From positions 1-34,443 of the forward strand of contig CAIQRS010000057.1 in NCBI GenBank assembly GCA_903874275.1: a stretch of 34,443 nucleotides of DNA. Direction: 5' to 3'. The notes beneath the pieces were generated by a model. That model was not told the DNA's origin and ran no database searches. It was given only the letters and a program-made list of their open reading frames with translations. Position 1 is the first letter of the stretch. Each line of letters starts with the position of its first letter. The DNA is from an uncultured Anaeromyxobacter sp. (lineage in GTDB: Bacteria > Myxococcota > Myxococcia > Myxococcales > Anaeromyxobacteraceae). Of this stretch, positions 18,460 through 26,390 are shown in pieces. The position numbers and the translations under genes are program-made.

Positions 18460-19116
18460 ATGGCCCAGTTCAACGAGGATAGCCGCGAGCTCGCGGTGAA
18501 AGTCGTCTACTACGGTCCCGCCTTGTCCGGGAAGACGACCAATTTGCAGGCCCTTTACCAGAAGATGGACCCCAAGGTGCGCGGGCGTCTCATGACCCTC
18601 GACACCAAGGACGACCGCACCCTCTTCTTCGACATGATGCCGGTCTACTTCCGGGCCGCGGGCGGGGTGAAGGTCAAGATCAAGCTCTACACCGTCCCCG
18701 GCCAGGTGATGCACGAGTCCACGCGCCGCATCGTGCTGCAGGGGAGCGACGCGGTGGTCTTCGTGGCCGACAGCCGGAAGTCGGAGGCCGCCTCCACGCT
18801 CGCCTACTGGAAGGACATGCTGCGCAACCTCGAGGCCAACGGGCTCGACCCGCGCGCGCTGCCCATCGTCATCCAGAAGAACAAGATGGACCTGGAGGGG
18901 ATCCGCGAGGACGATTTCGCCGACCTGGTGCGATCGCCGAACGTGCCGGTGATGCCGGCCAAGGCCATCCACGGCGAGGGGGTGCTGGAGACGCTCGGGG
19001 CGCTGCTCTCCCTGTGCTACCGCGACCTCGACCGGGCCCTCGGCCTGGCCAAGCGCTTCTCCCTTCCGGAGAAGGAGTTCATCGGCTCGGTCTTCAGCCG
19101 CGTGGAAGCCAGATGA
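18460..19116 (+). CDS. MglA-like Ras-type small GTPase
   Basis: 218 residues from the ATG at 18460, with GGAGG just upstream. It belongs to the prokaryotic MglA family, which sets front-rear polarity and motility reversals in Myxococcus. Motifs are G1 YYGPALSGKTTN (18-28), DDRTLFFD with Arg53, LYTVPGQV (77-83) with Thr78 in place of the usual Asp and Gln82, and NKMD (141-144). Arg53, Thr78 and Gln82 fall at the same numbers as the key residues known for M. xanthus MglA. It differs by a longer C-terminus and by having no mglB (Roadblock GTPase activator) beside it, so it is probably a paralogue rather than MglA itself. Its last codon overlaps the next gene (ATGA), tying it to a PocR-type kinase. 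Confidence 0.88.
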   Translation: MAQFNEDSRELAVKVVYYGPALSGKTTNLQALYQKMDPKVRGRLMTLDTKDDRTLFFDMMPVYFRAAGGVKVKIKLYTVPGQVMHESTRRIVLQGSDAVVFVADSRKSEAASTLAYWKDMLRNLEANGLDPRALPIVIQKNKMDLEGIREDDFADLVRSPNVPVMPAKAIHGEGVLETLGALLSLCYRDLDRALGLAKRFSLPEKEFIGSVFSRVEAR

Positions 19117-20501
19117 AGGTCCAGCAGTCCGTCCTCCTCCAGGCGACGCCGCTCGGCGACCTGCTCGACATCCGGTCGTTCACGGAGGTCTGCCACTCCT
19201 TCGCCGAGCTCTACCGCATCGGCGTGAAAGTCTTCGACGACACCGGGAACAAGCTGGTGGACGTGAAGATCGGCAACGCCGACTTCTGCGGCTACCTGTG
19301 GCAGTCGCCCGAGGGGCGAACCCAGTGCATGGCCACCGTGCAGCGGGTGAAGACCGACCCCGTGCCCGAGGAGCCCATCCCCAGCACGGTCCACTGCTTC
19401 GCCGGCTGCCGCTACGCGATCCAGCCGGTGCTCTACGAGGGGGACGTCATCGGCCGGATCGTCTTCGGCCCGTTCGTGCCCGACGACCTGGTGGCGCTTC
19501 CGGAGAGCCTGGCCCGCATCTCCCCGGACTTCGACGAGAAGCTGGCCGCCTCCTACATGAACAAGATCCGGCGGGTGCCACAGGCCACCGCCGAGAAGGT
19601 GCTCAAGCACTTCGCCGAGATCCTCGACGTGCTGGTCTTCACCGGCCACAAGAACCTGCTCACGGCGCGGCTGCACATCGAGGCGGTCCAGGAGTCCTAC
19701 CGCGAGGTGCAGGAGAAGAACCGGCAGCTCGAGGGGGCCTACCAGGCGCTCAAGGAGCTCGACCGGCTCAAGTCGAACTTCCTCGCCACCATGAGCCACG
19801 AGCTGCGCACCCCGCTCACCAGCGTCATCGGCTACTCCGAGATGATGCTGGAGGGGCTGGGAGGCCCGCTCACCGCCGAGCAGCGCGAGTACCTCCAGAT
19901 CATCATGGACAAGGGGGAGAGCCTGCTCGGGCTCATCACCTCCATCCTCGACATCTCCAAGATCGAGGCCGGCCGCGTGAAGCTGGTGGTCTCCGACGTG
20001 GACGTGAACGCCATCATGCGCGACGCGGTGGCCACGGTGACGCCCCACGCCCGCAAGAAGGGGCTGCGGGTCTCCTGGCAGCCCTCCAAGCTCCCCGCCG
20101 TGCAGTGCGACCGGGAGAAGATCCGCCAGGCCCTCATCAACCTGGTGACGAACGCCGTGAAGTTCACCCCCTCCGGCGGCTCGGTCTCGGTGGAGGCGCG
20201 GGCCGACGGCGACGACCGGGTGGCCATCACGGTGACCGACACCGGGATCGGCATCGCGCCGCAGAACCTGGGGCGAGTCTTCGACGTCTTCTTCCAGGTG
20301 GACGGCTCCACCACCCGCGAGTTCGGCGGCGCCGGCCTCGGCCTCGCCATCGTGAAGAGCTACCTGGAGGCCCACGCCGGCACCGTGAAGGTCGCCTCCG
20401 CCCCGGGCGAGGGCACCACCTTCACCATCTCCCTGCCGGTGATGGCCTCCGGTCCGGCCGCACTCGCGGTCCGGGCCTCCCCGACGGTCGCGGCGGGGTA
20501 G
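19113..20501 (+). CDS. PocR-domain sensor histidine kinase
   Basis: 462 residues from the ATG at 19113, overlapping the GTPase stop (ATGA). The N-terminal 185 residues match a PocR-type sensory domain. Conserved cysteines are C59 and C72 (DFCGYLW through RTQCM), then C95 and C99 (HCFAGCRYAIQPV), which could bind a metal or sense redox state. A short coiled segment (190-220) leads to the kinase: phosphoacceptor His229 in ATMSHELRTPLTSVIGYS, an N box with NLVTNAVKF (343-351), DTGIG (376-380) and GGAGLGL (405-411). No membrane segment or signal peptide is present, so sensing is cytoplasmic. No dedicated response regulator follows directly; the nearest receiver is the CheY at 23444. Ligand unknown. 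The kinase assignment is certain; PocR rests on the cysteine pattern. Confidence 0.87.
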   Translation: MKVQQSVLLQATPLGDLLDIRSFTEVCHSFAELYRIGVKVFDDTGNKLVDVKIGNADFCGYLWQSPEGRTQCMATVQRVKTDPVPEEPIPSTVHCFAGCRYAIQPVLYEGDVIGRIVFGPFVPDDLVALPESLARISPDFDEKLAASYMNKIRRVPQATAEKVLKHFAEILDVLVFTGHKNLLTARLHIEAVQESYREVQEKNRQLEGAYQALKELDRLKSNFLATMSHELRTPLTSVIGYSEMMLEGLGGPLTAEQREYLQIIMDKGESLLGLITSILDISKIEAGRVKLVVSDVDVNAIMRDAVATVTPHARKKGLRVSWQPSKLPAVQCDREKIRQALINLVTNAVKFTPSGGSVSVEARADGDDRVAITVTDTGIGIAPQNLGRVFDVFFQVDGSTTREFGGAGLGLAIVKSYLEAHAGTVKVASAPGEGTTFTISLPVMASGPAALAVRASPTVAAG

Positions 20502-20516
20502 GGCCTGCCACCCCCG

Positions 20517-21500
20517 GTGAAGCGCCCCGGCGAGTTCGAGCTCATCGAGCGCTTCACCCGGCCGTTCGGGCGCGGCGAGGGGATCCGGGTCGGCATCGGC
20601 GACGACGCGGCGGTGCTGCGGCCGCCGCCGGGCCAGGATCTCGTGGCCACGGTGGACGCGGTGGTCGAGGGGGTCCACTTCACGCCCCGTTTCACCCCGG
20701 AGGAGATCGGCTGGAAGGCGCTGGCCGTGAACCTGTCCGACCTGGCCGCCATGGGGGCCCGCCCGCTCTGGGCGCTGGTGGCGCTCTCCACCCCGCCGGC
20801 CGCCGACCCGGGAAGGTTGGCGCGGATCGGCCGTGGCATCGCCGCCTGCGCCCGCCGCCACGCACTCTCGGTGGTGGGCGGCAACGTGACGGCCGCCCGC
20901 CAGCTCTCGCTCACCGTCACCGTCCTCGGGGCGGTCGGGAAGGGGAGGGCGCTCCTGCGCAGCGGAGGGCGACCCGGCGACCTGCTCGTGGTCAGCGGGA
21001 CGCTCGGCGACGCCGCCCTCGGACTGCTGCCCGGCGCCGCGCCGGGGCCGCGCGGCCGCCAGCGCCGCCCCCGCCCCCGCCTGGCGCTGGGCCGGGGCGT
21101 GGCCGGGATCGCCCACGCCGCCATCGACATCTCCGACGGGTTCCTCCAGGACCTGGGGCACCTCTGCGCCGCCTCCGGGGTCGGGGCCCGACTGGAGGCG
21201 GACAGGCTCCCGCTCTCCCCCGCCTACCGGGCGGCCACCCGGGGAAGCCGCGACCCCTTCGAGGGGGCGCTTTCCGGAGGGGAGGACTACGAGCTCCTCC
21301 TGGCCGTTCCCCCGTCGCGGCTCGAGGCGCTCCGGGGAGCTGCGCGCCGGGCGAGCACCCGGGTGACGGTGGTGGGAGCCCTCGAGGACCGCCCGGGGGT
21401 CCGTGTGGTCGAGGGTGGGCGCTCGCTCCGCCCCCGCCGAGAAGGGCACGACCACCTGCGCTCCGTGCGCGTTCTTGGACCCGGGAGCGGCAGGGCGTAG
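20517..21500 (+). CDS. thiL: Thiamine-monophosphate kinase ThiL
   Basis: 327 residues from a GTG at 20517, 15 bases after the kinase gene. ThiL phosphorylates thiamine monophosphate to the active diphosphate. Diagnostic pieces are GIGDDAAVL (26-34), DAVVEGVHFT (47-56), VNLSDLAAMGA (71-81), VVGGNVTAA (119-127), RPGDLLVVSGTLGDAALGLL and DISDGFLQDLGHL. In the GGDT motif of E. coli ThiL the Asp is replaced by Asn here (GGN at 121-123), a variant I believe occurs in other ThiL proteins. Length is normal. Its position inside a signalling operon looks incidental. A good promoter for the chemosensory genes overlaps its stop codon. Confidence 0.92.
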   Translation: MKRPGEFELIERFTRPFGRGEGIRVGIGDDAAVLRPPPGQDLVATVDAVVEGVHFTPRFTPEEIGWKALAVNLSDLAAMGARPLWALVALSTPPAADPGRLARIGRGIAACARRHALSVVGGNVTAARQLSLTVTVLGAVGKGRALLRSGGRPGDLLVVSGTLGDAALGLLPGAAPGPRGRQRRPRPRLALGRGVAGIAHAAIDISDGFLQDLGHLCAASGVGARLEADRLPLSPAYRAATRGSRDPFEGALSGGEDYELLLAVPPSRLEALRGAARRASTRVTVVGALEDRPGVRVVEGGRSLRPRREGHDHLRSVRVLGPGSGRA

Positions 21501-21503
21501 GAT
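21475..21503 (+). promoter_or_regulatory. Predicted promoter for the chemosensory operon
   Basis: TTGGAC at 21475-21480, a 17-base spacer and TAGGAT at 21498-21503, overlapping the thiL stop. It ends 33 bases before the GTG of the chemoreceptor gene, which also has a good ribosome site (GAGGAG). This would allow the che-lar part to be expressed independently of the mglA-like gene. Confidence 0.52.
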
Positions 21504-21536
21504 CCTTGCCGTTCCCGCCGCACCCGAGGAGAACCC

Positions 21537-22937
21537 GTGTCGAGGAGCCTGCGCCAGGACCGTCCGTCGAGCCGCCCCATGGCGAACGGCCAGGACACGC
21601 CGCCCCACATGGTGGCCCTCCGCGGCCGCTCGCCCGACCGTGACCTGCGTTCGCCTGCGCCGCCCCCCGGGCGCACCGTGTCGCTGCAGACCAAGCTCCT
21701 CGTCTCCTACCTCATCCTGGGCGCCTTCCTCCTCGTGGCCACCCCCGTCGTGCAGGAGCGGCTCCTGCCCGACCGGATCGTCGTCGCCGACGCGGTGCTG
21801 CTCGCGCTCACGCTGGTGGCCGGCTACGCGCTCTCCACCGCCGTCCTCCGGGTGAACCGGCTGGCCCGGCTCAAGTTCTCGGCCGTCGAGATCAGCGGCG
21901 GCGACCTCTCCAAGGTGGTCGTCTCCGAGGAGGCCCGCGGATTCCACGACGAGGTGGACGGCCTCACCGAGTCGATCCGGACCATGCAGGAGAACCTGCG
22001 CGACCTGGTCTCCCGCATCCAGCGCACCGCCCAGTCGGTGGCCGAGAGCGCCAACGAGCTCCAGACCTCCGCCGAGGAGGTCAACGCCTCCACCGACGAG
22101 GTGGCCAGCTCCATGGCCAAGATCGCCCAGGGCGCCGAGGAGCAGTCGGGGCTCGTGGAGCGGACCTCCAAGGTCATCGGCGACATCGCCGCGTCCATCG
22201 AGCGCACCGCCCGGAGCGCCGAGGAGGCGGCCAAGGCCAGCGCCGACACCTCCTCCGGCGCCACCCAGTCCGGCGAGGCGGCCCGGCTCGCCGCCGCCAA
22301 GGTGAAGAAGGTCTTCGCCCGCATCGAGGCGGCCAGCGAGCAGGTCTTCGCCTTCGGCGAGCGGACCCGCGAGATCACCCAGATCGTCGAGGTCATCACC
22401 AGCATCTCGCAGCAGACCAACCTCCTCGCGCTGAACGCCACCATCGAGGCCGCCCGCGCCGGGGAGTACGGGCGCGGCTTCGCGGTGGTGGCCGAGGAGG
22501 TGCGCAAGCTGGCCGAGAGCTCGGGGCGCTCCGCCGAGCAGATCTCGGCGGTGGCCGCCGACGTCTCGGCGCGCGCCTCCGGCGTCGTCCAGGCCATGCG
22601 GGCCTCGGTGGACGAGCTGGGCGAGGGGCGCGAGGACCTGAACGCCATCATGCGCTCCCTCGACGGCATCGCCGGCGCTGCCGCGGCCGGGGCCGACAAG
22701 GTGCGGGTCATCTCGGAGGCCGCCCGCGACCAGCTGCAGGGCTCGGCCGACATGGTGCGGGCCATGGACGACATCTCCGACGTGGCCACCAGCAACGCCA
22801 CCGCCACCGAGGAGGTGCGCAAGGTGATCGTCGAGCAGACCGCCTCGGTCTCGCAGATGGCCAGCGCCGCGCAGGAGCTCCTCAACCTCTCCCTCGAGCT
22901 GCAGAGCGTGGTCTCGCGCTTCCGCCTCGACCGGTAG
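21537..22937 (+). CDS. Methyl-accepting chemotaxis protein without periplasmic sensor domain
   Basis: 466 residues from a GTG at 21537 with GAGGAG a few bases upstream. About 48 cytoplasmic residues (Arg/Pro-rich) precede two membrane helices at about 53-70 and 82-103, joined by a loop of only about 10 residues, so there is no external ligand domain. A HAMP-like region follows, then the long coiled-coil signalling domain with the nearly invariant hairpin tip ([20 protein letters not shown], then [18 protein letters not shown], about 293-330). Sensing must be through the membrane, the cytoplasmic N-terminus or a partner protein. Q/E-rich helices suggest potential methylation sites, yet no CheR or CheB gene is nearby. 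It heads the run MCP-CheW-CheY-CheA-CheC. FrzCD of M. xanthus also lacks a periplasmic domain, but has no membrane helices. Confidence 0.93.
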
Positions 22938-22941
22938 CCCC

Positions 22942-23391
22942 GTGGAGAGGGATCCCCGCCACGTGCTCTTCCGCGCCGGGGGCGAGCGCTTCGCCCTGCC
23001 GCTCGACTCCGTCGCCGTGGTGGTCCCTCCCGACCCGCCCTTCGCCCACGTGCCCCGCACCGCGCCGCCGGTCCTCGGTGCCATGGGGCTGCGGGGGAGG
23101 GTGGTGGCGGTGGTGGAGATGGCTCCCCTCCTCGGCCTGCCGGGCGGGAGGCTCGCGCAGGGCGGAGGGCAGGTGCTGGTCCTCGAGCGGGAGCGGCGCG
23201 CACTGGGGTTCCTCGTGGACGCGGTGATGGGGGTCGAGCCGATCGAGCCGCCCGCGACCCCCGGCGACGGACTTCCGGTGAAGGGGCTCTCGGTGGTGCG
23301 CGGTTCCCCGGTGGCCATCCTCGACCCGGACGCCCTGGCGGCGGCGGCCGGGCGGCTCTTCCGGGGGCGTGCCGGCCAGCGCGCGCCGTGA
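22942..23391 (+). CDS. cheW: CheW coupling protein
   Basis: 149 residues from a GTG 4 bases after the chemoreceptor stop. CheW bridges receptors and the CheA kinase in the signalling array. The sequence follows the CheW two-lobed beta-barrel: VLFRAGGERFALPLDSVAVV at the start, VLGAMGLRGRVVAVVEMAPL (the loop-strand characteristic of CheW, usually G..N.RG), then VLVLERERRALGFLVDAVMG and a C-terminal AILDPDAL strand. The usual Asn in the NLRG motif is replaced (GLRG). Length is normal for CheW. Coupling by position to the receptor and to CheA suggests a dedicated adaptor. Identification is good despite divergence. Confidence 0.87.
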   Translation: MERDPRHVLFRAGGERFALPLDSVAVVVPPDPPFAHVPRTAPPVLGAMGLRGRVVAVVEMAPLLGLPGGRLAQGGGQVLVLERERRALGFLVDAVMGVEPIEPPATPGDGLPVKGLSVVRGSPVAILDPDALAAAAGRLFRGRAGQRAP

Positions 23392-23443
23392 TACCGTGAT
23401 CCATCCCCTCCTCGACGCTCCCGGAACGGAGCCAGGTCCGCGA

Positions 23444-23812
23444 ATGCCGAAGAAAGTCCTCATCGTCGACGACGCGGTCTTCATGCGGAACATGATCCGC
23501 GACATCTTCACGAGCGGCGGCTTCCAGGTGGTGGGCGAGGCCGCCAACGGCCTCGAGGCGGTGGAGAAGTTCCGTGAGCTCCGCCCCGACCTGACCACCA
23601 TGGACATCGTGATGCCCTTCAAGAGCGGCATCGAGGCCACCCGCGAGATCGTCAAGGTCGATCCCCGGGCCGTGGTGATCATGTGCAGCGCGCTCGGGCA
23701 GGAGGCGCTGGTGATGGAGGCCATCGAGGCAGGCGCCAGCGACTTCATCGTCAAGCCGTTCAAGTCCGAGGACGTGATCGCGGTGGTGAAGAAGGTCCTG
23801 GGCGAGGGTTGA
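23444..23812 (+). CDS. cheY: CheY-type single-domain response regulator
   Basis: 122 residues from the ATG at 23444 (MPKKVLIVDDAVFMR). The frame is open further upstream into cheW but those residues are not receiver-like. The receiver has acidic residues D9 and D10, phospho-acceptor Asp54 (TTMDIVMP), Ser82 in place of the usual Thr/Ser (CSALGQ) and Lys104 (VKPFKSED), so phosphorylation should be intact. No output domain is attached, so it must signal by binding a partner. In a flagellated cell this would be the motor switch; here, with no flagellar genes in view and an MglA-like GTPase upstream, a polarity or other target is possible. CheA lies 23 bases downstream and is its likely kinase. 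Confidence 0.94.
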   Translation: MPKKVLIVDDAVFMRNMIRDIFTSGGFQVVGEAANGLEAVEKFRELRPDLTTMDIVMPFKSGIEATREIVKVDPRAVVIMCSALGQEALVMEAIEAGASDFIVKPFKSEDVIAVVKKVLGEG

Positions 23813-23835
23813 CCGGGCGGGTGGTGTGACCCAAG

Positions 23836-25803
23836 GTGAACTGGGACCTCTCGAAATACCTGGCGCTCTTCGTCTCCGAGTCGCGGGAGCACCTCGACGC
23901 CCTCTCGGCCGGGCTGGTGCGGCTCGAGAAGGCGGGCGGCGGGGGCGAGGTCCCGGCCGAGGTCGTGGACGAACTCTTCCGCCACGTCCACAGCCTGAAG
24001 GGCATGGCCGCCGCCATGCAGCTGGAGGGCATCGCGCTGCTCGCCCACCGGGCCGAGGACGTGGTGGGCGTGGTCCGCGCTCTCGGGACGGCGCCCTCCG
24101 CCGAGGTGGTGGACCTGCTGCTCGCCGTCACCGACGCCCTCTCCGAGATGGTGAAGGAGGCCGGGGCCGGAGGCGCGCCGGTCGCCCCCGAGCCGCTGGC
24201 CGAGCGGCTCTCGGCGGCGTCGAGCCGGCTGCGGGGATCCACCCCGACGGCGACCGCCGCGGCGCCTCCCCCGGCCGCGCCCGCGCCGGCCGGGCCGGAC
24301 CCCGAGGCGATCCCCGCCGGGAAAACGCGCCGCCTCCGCGTGGACGTGGAGGTCGTCGAGGGGAGCCCGGTTCCCGCGGTGCGTGGCTTCCTCGTCCTGA
24401 AGCGGCTCGAGGGCGCGGGGCGGGTCGTCACGGCCAGTCCGGGTGCGGCCGAGCTGCGGGCCGGCCAGATGCCGGGCCGGAAGCTCACCGTGGAGGTCGA
24501 GACCGACCAGCCGGTCGCCGAGGTGGAGCGAACGCTGGCCCAGATCGCCGACCTCGGACGGGTCCAGGTCCTGGAGGTGGCGGAGCCCGCGCCCCACCGG
24601 CCCCCTCCTCCGGCGGCGCCGCCGAGGCCGGAGGGGCCCGGCGAGGCGCCCCGCACCGTGCGGGTCCGCGCCGAGATGCTCGACGAGTTCCTCGACGTGT
24701 CGGGCGAGCTCCTGCTCGCCACGGCGCGCCTTCGCGAGCTGGGACGGGCCATGCCCGAGGCCGGACGGCGCGCCCACGAGGAGGGGCTGGACAGGCTCCA
24801 GGCCATCGCCAAGGACCTGCACGGGCGGGTCATGTCGGCGCGCATGACCCCGCTCACCGGCCTCTCCGACCGGCTCCCCCGGGCGGCGCGCGACCTGGCC
24901 CGCCGCACCGGCAAGCAGGTGGACGTGGTGGTGACCGGCTCCGAGATCGAGGTGGACCGGGCGCTGCTCGACGAGATCTCCGACCCGGTCCTGCACCTCC
25001 TCCGGAACGCCGTGGACCACGGCATCGAGACCGCCGCGCAGCGGATCGCCGCCGGAAAGCGCCCCACCGGCCGCATCGAGGTGTCGGCGCGGCGCGAGCG
25101 GGACCGGGTGATCCTGGAGGTCTCGGACGACGGCCGCGGCATGGACCCGGAATCGCTGCGCCGCTCGGCGGTGGCGCGCGGAGCCATCGGCGCCGAGGCG
25201 GCGGCGGCGCTCCCCGACGCGGAGGCCCTCCTCCTCGCCTGCCTGCCCGGGGTCTCCACCGCCGGCCAGGTCACCGACGTCTCCGGGCGCGGGGTGGGCA
25301 TGGACGCGGTGAAGCGAAGCGTCGAGTCGCTCTCCGGGACGCTGGCCATCGAGAGCCGGCGGGGCGAGGGAACCCGCTTCACGATGCGGCTGCCGCTCAC
25401 CGTGGCCATGCAGCCGGTGCTGCTCGTGCGGGTGGGGCTGGAGGTGGTGGCCATCCCGGTGTCCAAGGTCCACGGGGCGTCGCAGGCCCACGTCGAGGCG
25501 CTCGACCGGGCCGGTGGCGCGCCGCAGCTGGCCTTCGGCGGCGGCCACGTCCCGGTGCACGATCTGGGGGTGCTCCTCGGGACCGGTCCGGCCGCCGACG
25601 GACGGCGCCGCTCCATCGTCATAACGGATAGTGAAGCGGGGCGGGTCGGCCTGGCGGTGGACCAGCTCCTCGGCCAGGAGGAGGCGGTCCTCAAGCCGCT
25701 CCACGGTCCGCTTTCCCTGGTTCCCGGGCTGTCGGCCGTCACCGTGCTCGGCAACGGGCGGCCGGTCTTCGTGATCGACGTCCCGGCCCTGGTGGCGGCA
25801 TGA
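23836..25803 (+). CDS. cheA: Chemotaxis histidine kinase CheA
   Basis: 655 residues from a GTG at 23836. CheA autophosphorylates and passes phosphate to CheY. The P1 domain (1-110) has phospho-His52 in HVHSLKGMAAAMQ. A Pro/Ala-rich linker (135-155) leads to a P2-like segment (157-255), a second linker, then the P3 dimer region. In the P4 ATPase the N box is HLLRNAVDHGIE near 386, followed by DDGRGMDP near 431 and GRGVGMDAVK near 484. The P5 CheW-like domain runs from about 520 to the end (MQPVLLVRVGLEVVAIPVSK, then GNGRPVFVIDVPAL). No extra receiver domain is fused, unlike FrzE of M. xanthus. Its stop overlaps the CheC-like start (ATGA). Confidence 0.96.
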   Translation: MNWDLSKYLALFVSESREHLDALSAGLVRLEKAGGGGEVPAEVVDELFRHVHSLKGMAAAMQLEGIALLAHRAEDVVGVVRALGTAPSAEVVDLLLAVTDALSEMVKEAGAGGAPVAPEPLAERLSAASSRLRGSTPTATAAAPPPAAPAPAGPDPEAIPAGKTRRLRVDVEVVEGSPVPAVRGFLVLKRLEGAGRVVTASPGAAELRAGQMPGRKLTVEVETDQPVAEVERTLAQIADLGRVQVLEVAEPAPHRPPPPAAPPRPEGPGEAPRTVRVRAEMLDEFLDVSGELLLATARLRELGRAMPEAGRRAHEEGLDRLQAIAKDLHGRVMSARMTPLTGLSDRLPRAARDLARRTGKQVDVVVTGSEIEVDRALLDEISDPVLHLLRNAVDHGIETAAQRIAAGKRPTGRIEVSARRERDRVILEVSDDGRGMDPESLRRSAVARGAIGAEAAAALPDAEALLLACLPGVSTAGQVTDVSGRGVGMDAVKRSVESLSGTLAIESRRGEGTRFTMRLPLTVAMQPVLLVRVGLEVVAIPVSKVHGASQAHVEALDRAGGAPQLAFGGGHVPVHDLGVLLGTGPAADGRRRSIVITDSEAGRVGLAVDQLLGQEEAVLKPLHGPLSLVPGLSAVTVLGNGRPVFVIDVPALVAA

Positions 25804-26390
25804 GCCCGTCCGTACGGCGCAGGGGCGAGGTCCTCGAGGCGCTCCGGCGGCTGGCCGCCCAGGGCGGGACCCAGGCCGCCGACGCGGTGGGGAGGTTCCT
25901 CGGCCGGGCCACCCTGGCGGACGAGGTCCGCTTCCTCGAGGGTCCCGACGCCCAGGGCGTCGTCCGGATGGTGGGGCGGCCCGACCAGGAGTTCGTGGCC
26001 ATCGCCATGGAGCTGCAGGAGCCGCTGGGCGGCCGGCTCGTCCTGCTCCTCCCCGCCGAGGAGGCGGAGCTCATCTCCCAGCGAATGGTCCCCGACGCGG
26101 CGGCCGGGTCGCTCGACGTGGTGGGGGAGAGCGCGCTCGTGGAGATGGGGAACATCGCCGGGTCGTCCTTCGTCTCGGCGCTGGCGGGCCGGCTCCAGTC
26201 GCGGCTGCTCCACGGCGTGCCACGCCTCACCCGCGGCGGCGCCCGGGCCTGCCTCGACACGCTCGCGCCCGGAGCGGCCGGACCGGCACTGGCGGTGCGA
26301 TTGGGGTGCCCCGAGACCATCGGCACCTTACTCCTCCTCCCGGACCCGGCGCGCCTGGACGGCCTGGCCAGGGTCCTGGAGATTCCCTGA
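25800..26390 (+). CDS. cheC: CheC-family CheY-phosphate phosphatase with one active site
   Basis: 196 residues; the ATG overlaps the cheA stop (ATGA). CheC/CheX/FliY proteins dephosphorylate CheY-P using a Glu-x-x-Asn motif. The second half carries it: ESALVEMGNIAGSSFVSAL, with Glu115 and Asn118. The matching helix in the first half (EALRRLAAQGGTQAADAVGR) aligns with the other usual site, but the Glu and Asn are Arg17 and Ala20, so only one site should work. B. subtilis CheC has two sites and CheX-type proteins vary. No CheD partner is seen. Together with CheY and CheA it forms a complete phosphorylation-dephosphorylation pair. Family assignment is by motif and synteny; the overall sequence is divergent. 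Confidence 0.8.
   Translation: MSPSVRRRGEVLEALRRLAAQGGTQAADAVGRFLGRATLADEVRFLEGPDAQGVVRMVGRPDQEFVAIAMELQEPLGGRLVLLLPAEEAELISQRMVPDAAAGSLDVVGESALVEMGNIAGSSFVSALAGRLQSRLLHGVPRLTRGGARACLDTLAPGAAGPALAVRLGCPETIGTLLLLPDPARLDGLARVLEIP

Follow-up and report, generated by a model that had tools for sequence, protein, structure and literature searches.

Does the small GTPase encoded at this locus answer to the histidine kinase whose gene overlaps its own, or to a Roadblock protein of the MglB type? We addressed this question in the window, i.e. the whole stretch of 34,443 nucleotides analyzed here, together with other genomes of the Myxococcota. The coordinates of the features are collected in Table 1.

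Table 1. Coordinates of the GTPase-kinase pair and its surroundings in the window, and of receiver genes behind the corresponding kinase at other loci (L numbers).
Feature	Position	Strand	Remarks
SofG-type small GTPase gene	18460..19116	+	218 aa; ATG 18460, TGA 19116; assigned by tree clade and MglA fold
GTPase C-terminal extension	19039..19113	+	residues 194-218; not in 195-aa MglA; conserved EFL..IF motif
ATGA stop/start overlap (translational coupling)	19113..19116	+	GTPase TGA and kinase ATG
PocR-HisKA-HATPase histidine kinase gene, cytosolic	19113..20501	+	462 aa; ATG 19113, stop 20501
PocR sensory domain	19158..19646	+	residues 16-178; C59, C72 and C95 family-wide, C99 lineage-specific
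HisKA domain	19770..19973	+	residues 220-287; phospho-acceptor H229 in SHELRTP
HATPase_c catalytic domain	20109..20441	+	residues 333-443
ThiL, MCP, CheW, CheY, CheA, CheC-like genes	20517..26390	+	syntenic context, outside the core pair
Single-domain receiver downstream of SofG kinase	L121:8733-9164		
Single-domain receiver downstream of SofG kinase	L122:4397-4771		
Single-domain receiver downstream of SofG kinase	L137:5171-5560		
Single-domain receiver downstream of SofG kinase	L133:5531-5953		
Single-domain receiver downstream of SofG kinase	L107 after 9340		

The window GTPase is SofG and not MglA

A sequence-only reading of this DNA had described the GTPase as MglA-like and pointed to R53, T78 and Q82. 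All three residues are found at these positions in the translated sequence, and both marks of Group 1 of the MglA family, the Arg in G2 (R53) and the TVPGQ motif in G3, are present. An AlphaFold2 model of the GTPase (pLDDT 86, pTM 0.87) predicts the MglA fold, with two helices in the C-terminal extension (residues 196-200 and 204-212). Its top PDB match is M. xanthus MglA 6izw (TM 0.80 to the query, 40% identity).

Searching the genome gave a single Roadblock match, which lies on another contig (C178) directly before a canonical 195-aa MglA, so that, as previously noted, no Roadblock/MglB gene stands beside the window GTPase. The C178 MglA and the window GTPase are 40% identical. Since a canonical mglBA pair is present elsewhere in the genome, the window GTPase is not MglA. 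We built a tree of 90 MglA-family proteins, all from Myxococcota, in which a 100/100 branch sets apart all 53 kinase-coupled GTPases and the Roadblock-coupled MglA proteins cluster separately. R53, T78 and Q82 are kept in 53 of the 53 rows of the kinase-coupled clade. Thus, the assignment to the MglA family stands, but the MglA label has to be replaced by that of a separate, SofG-type clade. The third group of the tree consists of long proteins, about 310-390 aa, with neither partner. Those encoded at L101:4158-5288, L144, L155 and L157 have a long extension at the C-terminus, and their retrieved flanks showed no Roadblock gene and no PocR kinase gene.

The name SofG comes from a Myxococcus genome (G136), whose MglA is 1 residue off the solved M. 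xanthus MglA over the aligned part. The orthologue of the window GTPase in this genome falls within the clade, is exactly 239 aa long and has a GNAT acetyltransferase gene adjoining its own. We take SofG to be MXAN_6703. The published length of SofG is 239 aa (PMC4316618) and MXAN_6704 is described as a GNAT (PMC4048283); the length, combined with a GNAT neighbor like MXAN_6704, identifies the sofG locus. M. xanthus SofG resembles the window GTPase in its clade, in R53, T78 and Q82, in being longer than MglA and in having no Roadblock partner, and the Myxococcus orthologue belongs to the same GTPase-PocR kinase pair. The window therefore contains the sofG locus of a member of the Anaeromyxobacteraceae. 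No paper on MXAN_6702/6703 was found in a literature search. The only homologue found on plasmids was a Deinococcus MglA-like GTPase.

At the Myxococcus locus (L100, G136), sofG is preceded by the GNAT gene and two PilT-like ATPase genes in divergent orientation, an arrangement also found in G064, G092, G096 and G087. The window genome has 4 PilT-family matches. PilT is present in nearly every genome, so its co-occurrence with SofG is uninformative.

The GTPase and kinase genes are kept together across the Myxococcota

As the sequence-only reading had reported, the stop codon of the GTPase overlaps the start of the kinase, the ATGA being common to both genes. In 37 of 51 loci, Myxococcus included, the GTPase stop shares bases with a start codon (ATGA, GTGA, TTGA or TGATG). 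Among 33 loci, such an overlap is present in 24 of 27 SofG pairs versus 18 of 205 other neighboring same-strand ORF pairs; as these loci are mutually related, a Fisher test on the counts serves as a guide only.

We searched 195 Myxococcota genomes with each of the two proteins. About 164 of them have a clear SofG-type GTPase, and in 149 of the best 150 GTPase matches the kinase lies directly downstream (137 same-strand downstream kinase matches, 8 cases recognized by reading the loci and 4 from PocR matches). The one remaining match, in G020, is 165 bases from a contig end. G029 has SofG in duplicate, and a separate PocR protein follows each copy. Among the 195 genomes, those lacking a SofG-type GTPase have no SofG-type kinase; the exception is G156, in which 589 bases separate the kinase start from the end of the contig. 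The expectation that the two genes would be adjacent in relatives is thus borne out almost universally, and the pair is a phylum-wide unit in the Myxococcota. Adjacency across the phylum together with a conserved overlap is more than chance would give.

The paired kinase is cytosolic and carries an ordinary PocR domain

The sensor domain matches PocR (PF10114) at 86.5 bits, against a cut-off of 23.9, and inspecting the sequence of the kinase showed no transmembrane segment; both agree with the cytoplasmic PocR kinase proposed earlier. In an alignment of SofG kinases, H229, N347, D376/G378/G380 and G405-G410 are near-invariant. Judged by these H, N and G motifs, the SofG-paired kinase is predicted to be catalytically intact. 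In the model of the kinase, a long helix connects PocR with the kinase core, which looks normal, and a fold search with the whole kinase returned kinase cores. A sequence search for a solved PocR structure found none. The PocR part is degraded in G014 (L110), G166 (L109) and G165 (L128), yet the pair is kept.

Four cysteines of the sensor (59, 72, 95 and 99) had been pointed out in this kinase. They are at these positions, with C27 in addition, but most of them turned out to be normal for the family. Of 54 SofG kinases, 50 retain C59, 50 retain C72 and 52 retain C95, and all three cysteines were also present in PocR domains from unrelated proteins (20 of 20), whereas C99 is confined to the Anaeromyxobacteraceae and a single further genome (G157), its position being Leu in 34 of the 54 SofG kinases. 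Because three of the cysteines are PocR-family hallmarks, little speaks for a metal or redox response, and the idea of a special metal/redox cysteine cluster was set aside.

Receiver and chemosensory genes behind the pair

In ten genomes belonging to four families, a single-domain receiver gene is found directly behind the kinase; seven of these genomes are of one family (G002 to G008), while G010, G055 and G163 each represent another. Most genomes have no receiver adjoining the SofG-kinase pair. In the window, none lies directly behind the kinase and the nearest is CheY, at about 23444-23812, which belongs to a ThiL-MCP-CheW-CheY-CheA cluster.

ThiL, the MCP and some or all Che genes are kept behind the pair in G161, G064, G092, G096, G163 and G013, among others, and G002 shows a like arrangement without ThiL. 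Since much of this order is kept in distant Myxococcota, there may be a link between the chemosensory system and the SofG module.

A proposed model for the control of SofG

With a partner gene joined to it and no MglB gene beside it, SofG has in the kinase the leading candidate for its regulator. Where a receiver gene follows the kinase, as in some lineages, the direct target may be a protein other than the GTPase. RomR, a response regulator, is with RomX the exchange factor of MglA (PMC11016934), so that by analogy a receiver could plausibly stand between the kinase and SofG.

We therefore propose the following model. SofG, as a Group 1 member of the MglA family, would be made together with its cytosolic PocR kinase as a unit kept across the Myxococcota. 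PocR would sense a small cytosolic ligand and the kinase would autophosphorylate on H229. It would then phosphorylate a receiver, either the adjacent single-domain protein of the four families or an unlinked one elsewhere, and this receiver would act on SofG much as RomR does on MglA. This is the most likely route; a direct contact between kinase and SofG is a less likely one. The output would presumably be the known role of SofG, the polar positioning of the type IV pilus ATPases PilB and PilT, as SofG places pilus motors in Myxococcus.

Control of SofG by the kinase, perhaps through a receiver, is in our view the most likely reading of the pair. We give about an even chance to its more precise form, in which SofG is co-translated with a dedicated PocR kinase that sets its activity or polar placement, most likely via a receiver. 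More tentatively, and with some doubt, the PocR kinase, plus the receiver where present, may be a Roadblock-free two-component regulator of SofG that connects a cytosolic metabolite to pilus placement throughout the Myxococcota. If true, a bacterial Ras-like GTPase would be run by a two-component sensor with no Roadblock protein.

The signal could also run in reverse, with SofG-GTP recruiting or switching the kinase, for example at the pole, and a response regulator receiving the kinase output. Such a direction would fit with the GTPase always being the first gene, with the motifs of an intact kinase, with the ten genomes in which a receiver follows directly and with a chemosensory cluster as a frequent neighbor. 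On the other hand, the PocR sensor provides the kinase with an input of its own and SofG has a direct motility role in Myxococcus (PMC4316618), which makes this direction unlikely.

MglB is an improbable regulator of SofG

Another explanation is that MglB, or another Roadblock protein encoded elsewhere, governs SofG and that the kinase is independent. The window genome does have one MglB gene, and MglB is given as a GAP for SofG in PMC11016934. This conflicts with PMC4316618, where the part citing the original SofG work states that MglB does not aid SofG hydrolysis and that the SofG GAP is not known.

We compared the residues by which MglA touches MglB, i.e. F56, F57 and F59 on beta2, and L64, I67, K181 and K185, which form the pocket for the acidic C-terminal helix of MglB (PMC6785124). 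As R53 and Q82, F56 and F57 are kept in SofG proteins, which speaks for a Roadblock partner; position 59 is L or M and position 64 is F. I67 is lost, position 181 is a non-basic H, F or Y, and position 185 is mostly non-basic. The window GTPase has G and S at the K181 and K185 sites, and the basic pocket is lost in most of the clade. In addition, K192 of MglA is replaced by D, N or E in most SofG proteins, alpha5 has a mean net charge of -0.9 in SofG compared with +2.2 in MglA, and all 53 rows of the SofG clade have His in place of MglA Y85. Because SofG lacks the basic pocket residues and has a lowered alpha5 charge, a regulatory role of MglB appears unlikely from the protein sequences, and control by any Roadblock protein from elsewhere is quite improbable. 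These data also agree with the earlier proposal that this GTPase has no dedicated MglB, as the SofG clade is never Roadblock-coupled in our set.

Coupling as a possible means of setting expression only

According to distance trees, SofG and the kinase show no robust signal of co-evolution. Their covariation is weak or missing, with r=0.08 (p=0.29), or r=0.29 (p=0.02) once the degenerate kinases are left out, and significance is lost when MglA and MglB are controlled for. This weak covariation would suit a coupling that only sets the expression ratio of two proteins of different pathways, but retention of both genes across the phylum, their one-to-one coupling, the paired duplicate of G029 and the conserved overlap go beyond what shared expression usually needs and make such a role rather doubtful.

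Comparison with known systems

The sequence-only reading had considered a kinase feeding a polarity-type GTPase to be a new pairing. In general this does not hold, as the actinobacterial conservon (CvnA-D) already combines a histidine kinase with an MglA-family GTPase, with no response regulator in the conservon (PMC4316618); the window pairing is thus not a new category. However, the conservon has a membrane kinase, the Roadblock protein CvnB, CvnC and a Group 2 GTPase without the Arg finger, whereas the window has a cytosolic PocR kinase, no Roadblock protein and a Group 1 GTPase. What remains new is the Roadblock-free pairing, which is absent from the survey in PMC4316618: SofG is listed there as an orphan GTPase and its pairing with a kinase is not mentioned. 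A literature search found no link of PocR with MglA.

The window GTPase shares with MglA of the M. xanthus MglA/MglB system the fold, the Arg finger and the TVPGQ motif. It differs by its partner, which is a PocR kinase and not a Roadblock protein, by the lost C-terminal helix pocket, by the change of Y85 to His and by its C-terminal extension. The kinase has the same PF10114 sensor and three-cysteine pattern as other PocR-domain histidine kinases but is tied to a GTPase and does not lie next to metabolic genes. SofG works in pilus polarity, yet according to PMC4316618 it is an orphan whose GAP is not known; with a partner gene joined to it across the phylum, the question of its regulator is directly testable in Myxococcus xanthus.

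Variation at residue 21

Residue 21 of the GTPase, which corresponds to G21 of MglA and to the G12 site of Ras, is Ala in the window (18520-18522), unlike in Myxococcus SofG, where it is Gly. Substitutions at the G12 site of Ras slow hydrolysis or GAP action. Within the SofG clade (52 rows), we found Ala in 24 rows, Gly in 23 and Pro in 5, while all MglA rows (23) and all rows of the long paralogues (13) have Gly.
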